Part shown: positions 3 to 27,283 of the stretch, one piece after another | Layout: every line of letters begins with the position of its first letter | Position numbering within the stretch: position 1 is the first letter of the stretch | Source of the DNA: Sulfurivermis fontis | GTDB taxonomy: Bacteria > Pseudomonadota > Gammaproteobacteria > Thiohalomonadales > Thiohalomonadaceae | Direction: 5' to 3' | DNA: 64,000 nt | Assembly (NCBI RefSeq): GCF_004001245.1 | Contig: NZ_AP018724.1 | Coordinates: forward strand, 2,844,501 to 2,908,500 | Program-made: the position numbers and the translations under genes | The notes under the pieces: generated by a model | What the model was told of the DNA's origin: nothing | The model's database searches: none | The model's input: only the letters and a program-made list of their open reading frames with translations

Positions 3-620
3 CGACGCGGCGCGGCCACCCGCTCCGGCAGTGACTCCCGCGCCTACCAGCAGGTGGTGCAGGAGGCAGCTCGTCTGCTGGCGCAGGGTGAAGCCGCGGG
101 TTTCGACGACGCCAGGCGCAAGGCGGTCAGTCGCCTCGGCATCACCCTGCGCCAGACGCCTGACAATGCCGCCATCGAGCAGGCCATGCTGCAGTACCGC
201 ACCCTGTTCCAGGCAGACGGCCAAACCAAGCAATTGCGGCATTTGCGTCAGACGGCCCTGCAGGCCATGCGCCTGCTCGCCCCCTTCGAACCCCGTCTGG
301 TCGGTCCGGTGCTGGCCGGGACGGCACCGCCCCACTCACCCGTGCATCTGCACCTGTTTGCCGACACTGCAGAGGCCGTGGCACTGTTTCTGCTGGAACG
401 GAACATCCCCTGCGAGCATGACGAGCGGCGCGTCCGCTATACGCTGGAGACATGGGAGAACCTGCCCCTCTATCGCTTCGTCGCCGGCGATGTCACTGTG
501 GAGTTAACCGTCTTTCCGGCCCAGAGCCTGCGCCGCCGTCCCTTGAGCCCGGTGGACAACCGCCCCATGCAACGCGCCGATGCTGCGGCTGTAGCGCAAT
601 TGCTGGGTGGCACCACCTAA
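3..620 (+). CDS. Conserved hypothetical protein, 5' end outside the window
   Basis: The reading frame is open from the first bases of the window to a TAA at 618-620, giving at least 205 residues; a GTG at 54 could serve as a start but the frame upstream of it has no stop, so the gene probably begins outside. Visible conserved-looking stretches are FEPRLVGPVLAGTA and HLHLFADTAEAVALFLLE, followed by a C-terminal LSPVDNRPM. I recognise the style of a gammaproteobacterial conserved hypothetical protein, possibly nucleotidyltransferase-like in fold, but cannot assign a function. The stop codon lies at the edge of a dispersed repeat. Confidence 0.6.
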   Translation, partial: RRGAATRSGSDSRAYQQVVQEAARLLAQGEAAGFDDARRKAVSRLGITLRQTPDNAAIEQAMLQYRTLFQADGQTKQLRHLRQTALQAMRLLAPFEPRLVGPVLAGTAPPHSPVHLHLFADTAEAVALFLLERNIPCEHDERRVRYTLETWENLPLYRFVAGDVTVELTVFPAQSLRRRPLSPVDNRPMQRADAAAVAQLLGGTT

Positions 621-705
621 GGAAGGTCTGAACAAGTCCATCCGTGGACAAAACCACGCCATCCCTGTGCCGCGGAAGCTCTGAACTTATTCAAAGCGTC
701 CCTAA
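617..705. repeat. Dispersed inverted-repeat element, short copy
   Basis: The segment begins CTAAGGAAGGTCTGAA and ends near GCTCTGAACTTATTC followed by CCCTAA, so its ends are roughly inverted copies of each other. The same terminal sequences and an internal ATCCCTGTGCCGCGG are found in the longer copy at 24,488-24,648. This copy lacks the internal AT-rich hairpin of the long copy and is likely an internally deleted non-autonomous element. It starts at the stop codon of the upstream gene. Confidence 0.6.
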
Positions 706-2536: not shown

Positions 2537-5026
<2,490 letters not shown>

Positions 5027-15030: not shown

Positions 15031-15588
15031 ATGCGCGAAAAACCCAGGATTCTGCATACCAAGACGCTGGTTCAGACGCGCCTGTTCCGTATCGAGCAGG
15101 TCGACCTGCGTTTTTCCAACGGCGTCGAGACCCGCTTCGAGCGGCTCATCGGCGGCCCGCGCGGCGCCGTCCTCATCGTCCCCCTGCTCGACGACGACAC
15201 CGTGCTGCTGATCCGCGAGTACGCCGCCGGGGTGGACCGTTACGAGCTGGGCCTGCCCAAGGGCCGCATCGAGGGCGAGGAGTCCATTGTCGATGCCGCC
15301 AACCGCGAGATCATGGAAGAGATCGGCTACGGCGCCCGCCACCTGCACCACCTCACCTCCCTCTCCCTGGCGCCGGGCTACCTCGGCCACACCACCCATG
15401 TGGTGCTGGCGCGCGGCCTCTATCCGCACAAGGTGCCGGGCGACGAACCGGAAGAGATCGAGGTGGTGCCCTGGCCGCTTGAGCGCCTGACAGAACTATT
15501 ACAACAAGATGATTTCACCGAGGCACGCAGCATCGCTGCGCTGTTCCTCACCCGGGAGCACCTTCAGCATGAGTCAGCACCCTCATAA
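15031..15588 (+). CDS. nudE: ADP compounds hydrolase NudE
   Basis: Nudix hydrolase acting on ADP-ribose, Ap3A and NADH in the characterised homologue. The 185-residue product starts MREKPRILHTKTLVQTRLF and carries the full Nudix box GRIEGEESIVDAANREIMEEIG followed by SLSLAPGYLGHTTHVVLA, the NudE signature. The start at 15031 is by alignment. The 3' end overlaps cysQ by 20 bases, so the two are translated as a unit; both handle small nucleotide metabolites. Confidence 0.93.
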   Translation: MREKPRILHTKTLVQTRLFRIEQVDLRFSNGVETRFERLIGGPRGAVLIVPLLDDDTVLLIREYAAGVDRYELGLPKGRIEGEESIVDAANREIMEEIGYGARHLHHLTSLSLAPGYLGHTTHVVLARGLYPHKVPGDEPEEIEVVPWPLERLTELLQQDDFTEARSIAALFLTREHLQHESAPS

Positions 15589-16378
15589 CGATCCCTGCAA
15601 CCTGCTGACGCCGGCCATCGAGATCGCCATCGAGGCCGGGCGCAAGATCATGGAGATCTACGAGAGCGACTTCGCCGTCGAGCACAAGGACGACAGCACG
15701 CCGCTCACCGCCGCCGACACCGCCGCCCACCACATCATCGACGCCGGCCTGCGCGAGCTGACCCCGGACCTGCCCATCCTCTCCGAGGAATGCGCCGACA
15801 TCCCCTACAGCGAACGTGCCGCCTGGCGGCGCTACTGGCTGGTGGACCCGCTGGACGGCACCCGTGAATTCGTCAAGCGCAACGGCGAGTTCACCGTCAA
15901 CATCGCCCTCGTCGAAGACCATATGCCCTTGCTCGGCATCATCTACGCGCCGGTCTTGGGTGTGTACTACTACGCCTGCCACGGCCAGGGCGCCTGGAAG
16001 CGGGATGCCGTCAACCAGCCGGTGCGCCTGCACTGCCGCCGCTGGACCGGCAACCGCGCCGTCATCGCCGGCAGCCGTTCGCACCGCGGCGCCGCGATGG
16101 AGACCTTTCTCGCCAATCTGGGGGAATATGAACTGATACCGATGGGCAGCGCGCTGAAGTCCTGCCTGGTGGCCGAGGGCAAGGCCGACATCTACCCGCG
16201 CCTCGGCCCCACCTCGGAATGGGACACCGCCGCGGCGCAGTGCATCGTGGAAGAGGCCGGCGGCCGCATCACCGACACCGCCATGCGGCCGCTGCGCTAC
16301 AACACCAAGGACTCGCTGCTCAATCCCTACTTCTTCGCCTACGGCGACGCCACGGTGGACTGGTCGCAGTATCTGTAG
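15569..16378 (+). CDS. cysQ: 3'(2'),5'-bisphosphate nucleotidase CysQ
   Basis: Magnesium-dependent phosphatase that removes 3'-phosphoadenosine 5'-phosphate produced in sulfate assimilation. The 269-residue product has the inositol monophosphatase-family motifs: DDSTPLTAADTAAH, ILSEE, WLVDPLDGTREFVKRNGEFTVN (metal site) and the late TSEWDTAAAQCIVEEAGG. It starts inside nudE (ATGAGTCAGCAC). Its TAG stop is the first three bases of a palindromic dispersed repeat, so the repeat insertion may have supplied the stop. Confidence 0.94.
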   Translation: MSQHPHNDPCNLLTPAIEIAIEAGRKIMEIYESDFAVEHKDDSTPLTAADTAAHHIIDAGLRELTPDLPILSEECADIPYSERAAWRRYWLVDPLDGTREFVKRNGEFTVNIALVEDHMPLLGIIYAPVLGVYYYACHGQGAWKRDAVNQPVRLHCRRWTGNRAVIAGSRSHRGAAMETFLANLGEYELIPMGSALKSCLVAEGKADIYPRLGPTSEWDTAAAQCIVEEAGGRITDTAMRPLRYNTKDSLLNPYFFAYGDATVDWSQYL

Positions 16379-16448
16379 GATGGGTGAAGCGCAGCGCAAC
16401 CCATCATGAACTTTGGCCGATGGGTTTCACTTCGTTCCACCCATCCTA
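16376..16448. repeat. Palindromic dispersed repeat at the cysQ stop codon
   Basis: A 73-base near-palindrome: TAGGATGGGTGAAGCGCAGC ... AACCCATC at the left and GATGGGTTTCAC ... CCACCCATCCTA at the right. The outer ends are TAG in both directions. A related, longer element lies at 26,053-26,248 between menE and menC. The sequence resembles repeats widespread in proteobacterial intergenic regions. Confidence 0.75.
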
Positions 16449-16534
16449 CCAAACCTGAAAATACCATCAGTCATAAGGCGGGCCGTGCCCGCCGCAACAC
16501 GGCGCCCATGGCGCGCCCTATGCCGGGCTAGTCC

Positions 16535-16767
16535 CTAGCCCCTGTCATACACCGCCATGATGGCCTTCAGCTCGGTCAGCACGCGCCGGCGCTGCTCCGC
16601 ATCCAGTCCGTCCATCTGGGCTACCGGCTGGCCGGCCTCCAGCGCGGCGATGGTGTTGCGCACGCTGTCGCAACCCAGCTGACACAGGGCCTCGATACAT
16701 TGGCTGGTGCCGTCGTTGTCACTCATGCAACCGGGATTCCTGGGGGTGGTGGTCATAGAAATATACA

Positions 16768-16771
<4 letters not shown>
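16535..16771 (-). CDS. Small hypothetical protein downstream of uup
   Basis: 78-residue protein, or 63 residues if translation starts at the internal MSDNDGTSQC. It contains two cysteines in CIEALCQLGC, then NTIAALEAGQPVAQMDGLDAEQRRRVLTEL and ends AIMAVYDRG. The first ATG overlaps the uup stop by ATGA, so coupled translation after uup is likely. I do not recognise a family. The regular helix-like C-terminus and coupling support a real gene. Confidence 0.6.
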
Positions 16772-20270: not shown

Positions 20271-20277
20271 AGCTCGG

Positions 20278-20333
20278 GGAGCTCGGGGTCAGAGTAAAAA
20301 CTCTCGGAGCTCGGGGTCAGAGTAAAAACTCTC
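20278..20333. repeat. Two tandem 28-base REP-like repeats
   Basis: Two identical head-to-tail copies, 20,278-20,305 and 20,306-20,333, each running GGAGCTCGGGGTCAGAG then TAAAAACTCTC. A partial third copy (GAGCTCGGG) precedes them. The phrase CGGGGTCAGAGTAAAA is common near REP-associated transposases in proteobacteria, but no such transposase is in the window. Confidence 0.75.
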
Positions 20334-24487: not shown

Positions 24488-24648
24488 CTAAGGAAGCTCT
24501 GAATAAGTTCAGAGCTTCCGCGGCACAGGGATGTGCCGCCATTTTTCAACGACGATAAGTCGTTGAAAAATGAAGCCGAGCGAAAATCACACTTTTCGCT
24601 TGGCGTGGTCTGAGAAGTCCAGGATGGACTTATTCAGACCTTCCCTAA
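24488..24648. repeat. Dispersed inverted-repeat (MITE-like) element, long copy
   Basis: About 160 bases with terminal inverted repeats: CTAAGGAAGCTCTGAATAAG at the left and GACTTATTCAGACCTTCC at the right. Inside are strong hairpins: GCGGCAC/GTGCCGC around AGGGAT, and CAACGAC/GTCGTTG within TTTTTCAACGA...CGTTGAAAAA. It codes for nothing. A deleted copy is at 617-705. It fills most of the gap between the OTR gene and menE. Confidence 0.7.
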
Positions 24649-24708: not shown

Positions 24709-26055
24709 ATGCAGACCCACGACACCATCACACAGCTCGCCAGTGACCTGGCGCGCAAGACCGCAGCGGCCATCGCGCTGTTGCAAGCTGCCGGTGCCGG
24801 TGACGGCCGGCCGATCGCAGTGATCTCCGCCTCGCCCGCGGCGGTGTGCGTGCTGGCCCATGCCTGCGCCGCGCTCGGTCTGCCGCTGATGCCCCTGGAC
24901 CCGGGACTGCCGGATGCAACGCTCGCCGACCTGCTGGCACAGGCCGGAGTGAGCGTGGTCATCGCGGATCTCCGCTACCAAGGTTACGGCCATATCGACA
25001 CCGCGGCGCTGCTCGCCGCTGCCGAGAGTGAAGCCATACCGTCGTCACGTCTTGCGCCGAACGATATCGCACTGCTGATTGCCACCAGCGGCAGCAGCGG
25101 ACAACCCAGGGCGGTGATGCTGACGGCAGACAATCTGACAGCGGCGGCGCGGGCCTCGGCAACGCGCACGCCGCTGCGGCCCGGCGATCGCTGGCTGGCC
25201 TGCCTGCCGCTGTTTCACATCGGCGGTTTCTCCATTCTCACGCGCTGCGCGCTGGCCGGCGCCGAGGCGGTATTGCTGCCGGGCTTCGACGCTGCAACTG
25301 TGTGGCAGGCGCTGCGCACGGAACGCATCACGCATCTCTCGCTGGTGCCGGCGATGCTGGCGCAGCTGCTGGAGTGCAGTGCGGATGCGCCGCCGGCCAC
25401 CCTGCGCCATGTGCTGATCGGCGGTGCGGCCTTGGCGGCGGAGTTGGCGGAGCGCGCCGTGCAGCGCGGCTGGCCGCTGCAACCCACCTACGGCATGAGC
25501 GAAACCGCCTCGCAGGTGGCGACGCTGGAGCGGCTGCCATTGCCGTGGCGCACGGGGCAACTCGGTCGTCCGCTGCCGGGCGTCGAGCTGGCGGTGACGC
25601 ATGACGGCAGGCTGAAGATCCGCGGGCCGATGGTGATGGCCGGCTATGCCAATCCCGAGCTGCAGCGCGGCGACGGTCTGCAGGATGGCTGGTTCGTCAG
25701 CAACGACCTGGCGGAGATCAGCAACGCGGGTGAACTGCGGATCATCGGTCGCGCCGATGCGGTGATCATCAGCGGCGGCAAGAAGGTGCATCCGGCGCTG
25801 GTGGAGGAGCTGCTGCTGCGCTGTCCCGGCGTGACCACGGTTGCAGTGGTGGGGCGGCCCGATCCCACGTGGGGCGAGATCGTCACCGCGATCTACAGTG
25901 GCACGCCGGATGAAGCGGAACTGCTGGCGTGGTGCCGTGAGCACATCGCCGGCGCAGCACGGCCGCGCGCCGCGCTGCGCGTGGCGGCGCTGCCGCAACT
26001 GTCCAACGGCAAACCGGATCGCCAGGCCATCCGGCAACTGGCAGCATCCATGTAG
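24709..26055 (+). CDS. menE: o-Succinylbenzoate-CoA ligase MenE
   Basis: Adenylate-forming enzyme that activates o-succinylbenzoate with CoA in menaquinone synthesis. The 448-residue product has the AMP-binding motif LLIATSGSSGQPRAVMLT, the LPLFHIGG segment typical of MenE, QPTYGMSETASQ, and the C-terminal GRADAVIISGGKKVHP plus LSNGKPDRQAI with the catalytic lysine. It is convergent with menC and shares with it a repeat element whose two ends supply both TAG stops. It is the only men gene here on the plus strand. Confidence 0.92.
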   Translation: MQTHDTITQLASDLARKTAAAIALLQAAGAGDGRPIAVISASPAAVCVLAHACAALGLPLMPLDPGLPDATLADLLAQAGVSVVIADLRYQGYGHIDTAALLAAAESEAIPSSRLAPNDIALLIATSGSSGQPRAVMLTADNLTAAARASATRTPLRPGDRWLACLPLFHIGGFSILTRCALAGAEAVLLPGFDAATVWQALRTERITHLSLVPAMLAQLLECSADAPPATLRHVLIGGAALAAELAERAVQRGWPLQPTYGMSETASQVATLERLPLPWRTGQLGRPLPGVELAVTHDGRLKIRGPMVMAGYANPELQRGDGLQDGWFVSNDLAEISNAGELRIIGRADAVIISGGKKVHPALVEELLLRCPGVTTVAVVGRPDPTWGEIVTAIYSGTPDEAELLAWCREHIAGAARPRAALRVAALPQLSNGKPDRQAIRQLAASM

Positions 26056-26248
26056 ATGGGTGCAGCGGAGCGGAGCCCATCAATAGAAAAGGCACGAGGT
26101 ACAAGGAACAAGATACGAGGAATGAGCTCGCTGTGCCGTATTGTTTTGCATCAAGAAACCGTGCGCGCAGCATATGCGTTTCCCGCCCCGCATCTTGTGC
26201 CTCATACCTGGCTGTTTGATGGGTTGCGTTGTCGCTCCACCCATCCTA
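26053..26248. repeat. Inverted-repeat element bridging the menE and menC stop codons
   Basis: Left end TAGATGGGTGCAGCGGAGC ... GCCCATC, right end GATGGGTTGCG ... CTCCACCCATCCTA. The leftmost TAG is the menE stop and the rightmost CTA (TAG on the minus strand) is the menC stop. About 130 bases lie between, including GGCACGAGGTACAAGG and its rough complement, but no gene. Related to the compact 73-base repeat at 16,376. Confidence 0.7.
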
Positions 26249-27283
26249 CGGTACCGGCGTCAAACCCAGTCCGGGAGCCGTGTTGAGTATCAACTTACCA
26301 TCACATATCGCCGGTGGTATCGTTACATCGCGGGCCAGCCAATCCAGGGTGGCAAAACCGTGGGCAAGCTCTGGAGCGACGGCAGCCGCGAGGTGCGCCG
26401 CGGCAGCGACGCCGACGGCGGAATCGACCACCGAGGTAAGCACCACTTCCATGCCCGCATCCTGTGCGCGCGCCGCCAGATCGCGGCTGGCGATGATGCC
26501 GCCGATGCGCGCGGGCTTGATCACCAGCCGACGCACGGCACCGGCGGCCAGTAGCGCTGCACTGCCGAACTGCGGCAGCGATTCATCCACAGCGATGGCA
26601 TACGGCAGGGACTGCTGCAAGGCGCGCAACTGCTCCAATGTCGGCTGCGCCAGCGGTTCTTCCACCGCGTCGATGGGCAACGAACTGATCGCTCTCAGAA
26701 AGAGTTGTGCATCGCTCTCGTCCCAGGCGCGATTGGCATCGAGGCGCAGACGCAGGCGGCCGGCGGTTGCCGCATGTATTTCGTGCAGCAGGGTCAGTTC
26801 GTCAGCGACGCCGCCGACACCCACCTTGATCTTGGCGATGGCATAACCCTGCGCCAATGCCGCGACCGCCCGTTGCGCCGTATGTGCATCGAGCGCGCCG
26901 AGGGCGGCATTCACTTCCACCTTGCCGGTGAAGTTCTGCGCGCCGAGGTGCACGGCCAGCGGCACGCCACGCTGCCGCGCCGCCAGATCGAACAGCGCCG
27001 TCTCCAGCGCCCAGCGCACCTCGGGAACCGACACCTCGAGCGCCCGTACCGCTGCGTGATCACGACCGGGCAACTCCTGCGCCAGTGCCGTCAGCGCAGC
27101 GAGGATCTGCGCGGCGTTGCCGGCGCTGGGCAAGGGTGCGCAGTCGCCCCAGCCGGTGAGGCCGTCGTCACCGATCAGCGACAGCAGCATGCCGCGGCGC
27201 TCGTGCAACACCGCGCGCGCCGCCACCCAGGGCCGCCGCAGCGGCAAGGCATAGGAATGCAGGTGGGCCGCGACGATGCGCAT
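26246..27283 (-). CDS. menC: o-Succinylbenzoate synthase MenC
   Basis: Enolase-superfamily dehydratase making o-succinylbenzoate from SHCHC. The 345-residue product starts MRIVAAHLHSYALPLRRPW; catalytic-type residues are visible in AIAKIKVGV (KxK), LRLDANRAW, DAVEEPL, AVDES and LVIKPARIGG. It follows menB by 11 bases and ends on the repeat-derived TAG. The reading frame continues upstream over menB, but only the part from 27283 is MenC-like. Confidence 0.93.
   Translation of the reverse strand: MRIVAAHLHSYALPLRRPWVAARAVLHERRGMLLSLIGDDGLTGWGDCAPLPSAGNAAQILAALTALAQELPGRDHAAVRALEVSVPEVRWALETALFDLAARQRGVPLAVHLGAQNFTGKVEVNAALGALDAHTAQRAVAALAQGYAIAKIKVGVGGVADELTLLHEIHAATAGRLRLRLDANRAWDESDAQLFLRAISSLPIDAVEEPLAQPTLEQLRALQQSLPYAIAVDESLPQFGSAALLAAGAVRRLVIKPARIGGIIASRDLAARAQDAGMEVVLTSVVDSAVGVAAAAHLAAAVAPELAHGFATLDWLARDVTIPPAICDGKLILNTAPGLGLTPVP

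Follow-up and report, generated by a model that had tools for sequence, protein, structure and literature searches.

GTAG-type REP palindromes at the stop codons of menE, menC and cysQ in Sulfurivermis fontis

RAYT transposases are believed to move miniature elements of the REPIN/BIME type. Among the described systems, the GTAG-tagged REPs of Di Nocera, De Gregorio and Rocco (2013, PMC3733652) resemble the repeats of the present study in that their termini, according to the available text of that paper, "often provide" flanking ORFs with the TAG stop. The same text mentions species without REPtrons; neither a rate of stop overlap nor a comparison with REP-less orthologues was found in it, and GTAGGATGGG as the start of a word is absent from the main text. 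The REPINs of Bertels and Rainey (2011, PMC3116915) are, as far as the available part of the article describes them, units of two inverted REPs of about 70–80 bp, and loss of the sequence between the two REPs is described there as giving a long palindrome; the term 'stop codon' is absent from its main text. In E. coli, REPs no more than 15 nt away from a stop codon are presented in the accessible portion of the RepRanger study (PMC12306157) as translational regulators. The provision of stops by GTAG REPs is already published, going by the available text of PMC3733652, and the repeats described below belong to an ordinary element class, the quantitative addition made here being new but modest. 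A passing remark of 2013 is now tested with numbers for the frequency of heads serving as stops, for changes of the protein and for letters derived from the element.

REP pairs at the men and cysQ loci

The window, meaning the whole analysed stretch of 64,000 nucleotides, belongs to the source genome G000, which comprises one contig of 3.25 Mb. Bases 26052–26249, located where menE and menC converge, contain two GTAG-type REP palindromes inverted relative to each other (Table 1). The initial annotation described this region as one inverted-repeat element with the TAG stops of both genes as its ends. The stops are indeed the ends of the structure, but instead of a single element with long arms there are two REPs and a spacer of 136 bp. 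The menE gene ends in ATG-TAG, with GTAG at 26052–26055, and the head of its REP is one G short of the consensus (GTAG-ATGGGT); menC ends in CCG-TAG, its GTAG running from 26249 downward. The score of menE against TIGR01923 is 305.6 bits, under the cut-off of 330. The closest named relative found was a gammaproteobacterial MAG (L015) with 82% identity over MenC.

The compact repeat behind cysQ was said to start at the TAG of this gene, and this is the case: cysQ ends in CTG-TAG, and the GTAG head at 16375–16378 holds the stop. The head of the inverted partner (16449, minus strand) lies 89 nt past the stop of the minus-strand gene 16535–16768, so that the earlier count of "three of three" ends at stops becomes three of the four heads in the window. 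In this form, the coincidence with stop codons in the window is confirmed as a fact.

Table 1. Coordinates of genes and repeats, given as window positions or as fetched stretches of the source genome (L numbers)
Feature	Position	Strand	Remarks
cysQ-like gene, inositol monophosphatase family (Pfam Inositol_P)	15509–16378	+	stop TAG 16376–16378 = REP head
REP 3 (GTAGGATGGGTGAAGCGCAGCGCAACCCATC)	16375–16405	+	head = cysQ stop
REP 4	16419–16449	-	inverted partner of REP 3; 75-bp pair
menE, o-succinylbenzoate-CoA ligase	24709–26055	+	TIGR01923, best NCBIfam hit
REP 1	26052–26081	+	GTAG head and imperfect palindrome; TAG 26053–26055 = menE stop
Spacer between REP 1 and REP 2	26082–26217	.	136 bp
REP 2	26218–26249	-	inverted; GTAGGATGGGT head; TAG 26248–26246 = menC stop
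menC, o-succinylbenzoate synthase	26246–27283	-	TIGR01927, above cut-off
Miniature element copies	window 618–704, 24489–24647; L009, L013, L126, L252, L259, L261, L262

GTAG is terminal in all four REPs of the window. In the folds it is unpaired in REP 3, while part of it is paired in REP 2; in REP 1 the stem takes in its last G, the same base that ends the menE stop. The three stop-supplying REPs are palindromes of 30–32 bp that fold at −13.2 to −14.2 kcal/mol, which is better than shuffled sequence (z from −2.9 to −4.6, n = 3). Their stems begin at the stop or right behind it, and the whole cysQ pair folds at −40.6 kcal/mol. Both the cysQ pair (16375–16449) and the men pair (26052–26249) are inverted with the heads directed outward. 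GTAG REPs constitute a dispersed, mostly extragenic multicopy family with about 14 copies in the source genome, a number made up of 13 of 21 palindromes judged REP-like by eye and a copy at 440787 found by its head; in the congener G004, 111 heads were found versus 3 with a reversed control. We classify the repeats as REP palindromes of the GTAG type, arranged in inverted pairs (REPIN/BIME).

With the GTAG-tagged REPs they share, as far as the accessible text of PMC3733652 describes these, the unpaired terminal GTAG, a palindrome of 20–40 bp, the inverted dimers and the preference for convergent and downstream positions. The cysQ pair, at 75 bp, is similar to the two-REP units in the part of PMC3116915 available, but the copy number in G000 is very low and no RAYT was found near its REPs. 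As with the E. coli REPs in the available portion of PMC12306157, a hairpin stands directly 3' of the stop; the difference is that the stop in G000 belongs to the repeat itself. By analogy, the hairpins could plausibly protect 3' ends or act in translation.

Frequency of REP heads on stop codons

Stretches around REP heads were taken from G000, G001–G004, G009, G011 and G014, and genes were called by our own Markov-model caller. The offset was defined as the distance from the TAG of a head to the stop of the upstream gene on the same strand. G001 has the same cases as G000 and was excluded from the pooled count, which left seven genomes of the family. For G004, 100 of the 111 heads were listed and fetched, and for G009, G011 and G014, 20 stretches each, being part of the listed places; the heads of G010 and G019 were listed and stand outside the offset count. 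REP-rich genomes were picked for their many heads, i.e. the sample is non-random. A strict stem test removed non-palindromic heads at stops from the main count, namely those of menE (G000), of TmcA and DinB (G001) and one each in G011 and G014.

Counted against stop codons across the seven genomes, the copies are enriched: offset 0 was found for 7 of the 114 palindromic heads that point at the 3' end of a gene (8/115 including menE), compared to 0.55 expected from the 33 heads at offsets 1–60 in total. The excess is about 12-fold, with a Poisson p of about 2e-6 that is optimistic, like the other Poisson value below, because the heads of one array are not independent. It would be conceivable that a four-letter head containing TAG sometimes meets stops and that the sample was a lucky one; indeed, only a minority of the copies coincide with stops, and none of 53 do so in G004. 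Chance is already disfavoured, however, and seems highly improbable, since the excess at offset 0 persists without G000 and G001 (4/106 versus 0.53 expected, p 0.002). The excess is real, yet carried by a small number of copies.

The genomes contribute unequally. Stop-flush heads account for 3/8 of the palindromic heads in G000 (4/9 under a looser test counting menE, and 4/13 of the pattern-matched heads) and for 3/7 in G001, where the three stops are those of the window; the shares are 0/3 in G002, 0/2 in G003, 1/17 in G009, 2/15 in G011 and 1/16 in G014. In G004, which has the family in its greatest abundance, none of the 53 palindromic heads facing a 3' end lies on a stop, and those heads are at least 10 nt away. 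By heads, G000 differs from G004 with a Fisher p of 0.0016, the true support being weaker because of array dependence. Insertion targeted to stop codons, which the initial annotation had offered as one explanation, does not agree with this zero in a genome with 111 heads and two RAYT genes among its REPs, and as a general rule it is ruled out by G004. The count of "three of three" should accordingly not be read as targeting. The zero in G004 means that landing at stops is rare while the family is active, and a high retention must be assumed for the stop heads of G000. A second GTAG motif of the source genome, GTAGGTCGG, has 18 sites versus 112 with a reversed control, and most of these sites are therefore due to chance; they include four palindromic heads, none of them at a stop, and two non-palindromic ones at stops.

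Protein ends and the origin of the last letters

Fourteen family genomes were searched with menE and cysQ. Rows below 33% identity, rows without a stop and matches ending more than 60 residues short were dropped from the C-terminal comparison, and one 33% paralogue match to an ABC ATPase of G011 was left out of the count. In cysQ, the stop (TAA, TAG or TGA) follows the same residue in 7 of 11 REP-less relatives; these seven include the two closest ones, in G004 (88% identity, TAA) and G003 (71%, TAA). The ferredoxin of G011 has the same end position in 10 of 13 REP-less relatives. The S-methylthioinosine phosphorylase of G011 has the same end in 2/14 and an end within one residue in 12/14, and the ABC-F ATPase of G009 the same end in 1/13, with 9/13 relatives being 1–3 residues longer than the REP-bearing protein. 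Truncation or extension by the insertion was not seen for cysQ and ferredoxin. The ABC ATPase of G011, whose head is non-palindromic, falls short of its two relatives by 4 and 9 residues, and the tail of the ADP-ribosylglycohydrolase of G000 is variable (five relatives: −9, +12, −7, −9 and +146); judging by these alignments, the tails of the two proteins may have been altered. For menE, the only close match was in G001 (78%, repeat present), and three others showed 31–38% identity. REP-less MenC relatives found by a contig scan (52–60% identity) end two residues earlier (L017, L018), four residues later (L020) and five residues later (L016). The alignment of C-termini with REP-less relatives thus gave an unchanged end for cysQ, and distant relatives only for menE and menC.

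The last codon is ATG in four of eight independent stop-supplying heads, at menE and at the genes for ABC-F (G009), ferredoxin (G011) and BCCT (G014), as compared to 4 of 643 other genes, or 2.5% of the 162 that end in NNG. This bias has p values of 2e-5 against NNG-ending genes and 6e-4 against TAG-stopped genes, which are optimistic, as it was spotted before testing. Palindromic heads at any location are preceded by AT in 34% of cases in G004, 31% in G009 and 38% in G014, and less commonly in G011 (20%) and G001 (7%). With the repeat, the ferredoxin ends in Met; of 13 relatives lacking it, 10 end in Ile. It is probable from these comparisons that the element, or its preferred junction, wrote the last letters at the old position. 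The view of the stops as created by insertion consequently holds in part: the letters (GTAG, often ATGTAG) look element-borne, but the cysQ stop did not move, the end residue being the same in 7/11 relatives.

A tetranucleotide is the insertion target of IS200/IS605 elements, and GTAG (or TAG) could be such a target here, stops being hit as they belong to the few GTAGs where an insertion is tolerated in a GC-rich, gene-dense genome. Consistent with this, 5–14% of non-REP GTAGs outside coding sequence are stops, which is near the 7/114 of the heads, and some REP-less relatives end in GTAG at that place (S-methylthioinosine phosphorylase in G013, cysQ in G011). We nevertheless regard such targeting as unlikely. 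The closest two REP-less cysQ relatives end in TAA, the GTAG end is missing in most REP-less relatives of ferredoxin and ABC-F, and four roughly alignable repeat-less sites are without an in-register GTAG head; as two of them have CTAC (GTAG on the opposite strand) nearby, these sites do not decide the matter. The ATG-TAG bias, pointing to letters borne and written by the element, likewise speaks against a GTAG stop that was already there as the target. Moreover, according to the biochemistry in the available part of PMC8266576, cleavage occurs at CT, and GTAG is an internal motif of the element that serves for recognition or as a guide.

The unchanged protein ends would also be accounted for if a REP landed tens of bases past a TAG-stopped gene and a TAG-TAG deletion subsequently fused the head with the stop. 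Several flush copies in G000 and G001, versus copies at least 10 nt away in G004, fit this course of events, and the men site of G001 has likely experienced a short-repeat deletion at a REP, of 164 bp between two CCCATC copies, provided that the direction was that of loss. Against such joining, which appears improbable, no intermediate was found, several relatives stop with TAA or TGA and not with TAG, and an ATG ahead of the TAG is not predicted.

The explanation that we favour, and hold to be reasonably probable, is that old orphaned REP pairs were tolerated at gene ends since the head re-makes the stop, and were then kept. The element would bring a fixed head, GTAG, which AT precedes in about one third of the copies in three better-sampled genomes. 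We infer that it landed at the very end of a gene, where the head would re-make the last codon and TAG in frame; as protein length would be kept or nearly kept, the insertion would be tolerated. The TAG would then be held by selection, with the rest of the element free to decay or be deleted. Presumably, selection rather than chance keeps the heads, and the survivors would be enriched for stop-supplying heads. In addition, the hairpins may give the transcripts of the convergent men genes a structured 3' end. For core metabolic genes, the findings suggest that mobile repeats can donate stop codons and last residues with function kept.

Persistence of the repeats, a parallel element and transposases

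The men site of G001 contains a single 35-bp GTAG...CTAC palindrome, GTAGGATGGGTGCAGCGCAGCGCAACCCATCCTAC, both ends of which are the two stops. Compared to the window, this genome is without 26082–26245 (164 bp, the spacer and REP 2 up to 26245), a piece bounded by the CCCATC ends of the two REPs. The site looks like the internal REPIN deletion in the available part of PMC3116915, and the G001 form would be the derived one, having arisen by deletion; an outgroup for this site was not found. Both men heads are present in G000 and G001, which is expected if they are needed as stops. Three REP loci are common to the two genomes, two of them stop-supplying, and these are too few to show retention. 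The cysQ pair has 0/74 mismatches between G000 and G001, compared to 25/289 at third positions and 4/75 just downstream; it may be regarded as weak evidence of constraint, because the last 90 coding bases of cysQ also differ at one site only. No clean empty site was found among nine G000/G001 locus pairs (blastn) with seven junctions inspected, the latter being diverged, replaced or occupied.

A 26-bp palindrome with GTAG at both ends, GTAGGTCGGACTnnAGTCCGACCTAC, occurs twice in the source genome, at 217129 (L250, ~2030–2055) and 537608 (L252, ~2009–2034), and the G001 counterpart of the site at 537608 has a different REP pair. In G001, tmcA is convergent with another gene, and both stops are TAG within GTAG...CTAC (L111, ~3004–3031). 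The tmcA gene of G000 (L265) also ends at GTAG, with CTAC about 40 bases on and a different intervening sequence.

The source genome has a second repeat, unrelated to the REPs, which is a dispersed miniature element with the ends TA(A/G)GGAAG(C/G)TCTGAA. Four of the eight ends that face a gene 3' end lie exactly at stops (17 ends seen), the window gene 3–620 included. TAs within stops represent 11% of the TAs in stops or outside coding sequence, and under this null four hits have p 0.02 for 10–11 elements and 0.10 for 17 ends. The copies are flanked by CTAA...CTAA (window 617–620 and the other end), CTAG...CTAG (L013) and TTAG...TTAG (L261), and in our reading the element would make a 4-bp YTAR duplication. 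YTAR is the target of IS5-group elements, and we take the miniature element to be IS5-like, as the flanking duplications fit. An insertion at YTAR duplicates the stop codon, and therefore the gene would keep its stop automatically. This parallel supports the idea that ends that re-make a stop render gene ends safe sites. A broader proposition, which we put forward tentatively as possible though rather doubtful, is that in one compact, GC-rich genome two unrelated families, GTAG REPs and IS5-like elements, re-make TAG or TAA on entering a gene's end, making gene ends safe and long-lived sites, rewriting last codons (ATG-TAG) and setting the 3' boundaries of core genes.

Two RAYT genes (L071, L076) are located in G004 among its own REP variants, as is expected of cognate transposases. 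G000 has two Y1_Tnp genes, neither of which is within 1.5 kb of such REPs. A comparison of the two G004 RAYT proteins with 32 stretches of G000 (185,833 bases, the surroundings of REPs and other repeat copies) matched only these two known genes. The genome-wide transposase search relied on the Pfam model Y1_Tnp. At 1e-5 this model does not detect one of the two RAYTs of G004, and therefore a distant RAYT elsewhere in G000 may have been missed. As no RAYT lies near them in the fetched stretches, the REPs of G000 are apparently relics, few and orphaned. The missing cognate RAYT does not exclude membership among REPs, because species without REPtrons are in print in the available text of PMC3733652.

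The two RAYT-related Y1 transposase genes of G000, at L006 1462–2160 (genome position 426174) and L007 1459–2316 (91764), score 71.4 and 80.8 bits, respectively, against NF047646, which has a cut-off of 80. Each is placed between GGGGTCAG-type terminal inverted repeats, both stretches carry long direct repeats, and the transposases resemble the TIRtrons as these appear in the accessible text of PMC3733652. Upstream of the L007 gene, at a distance of about 1 kb, there is a GTAG palindrome of a different kind (GTAGGGCCGACTTCAGTCGGCCC). In the window, a tandem 28-bp repeat at 20273–20328, ending GGAGCTCGGGGTCAGAGTAAAAA and consisting of two copies that are 93% alike, resembles the terminal repeats of the L006 transposase gene.
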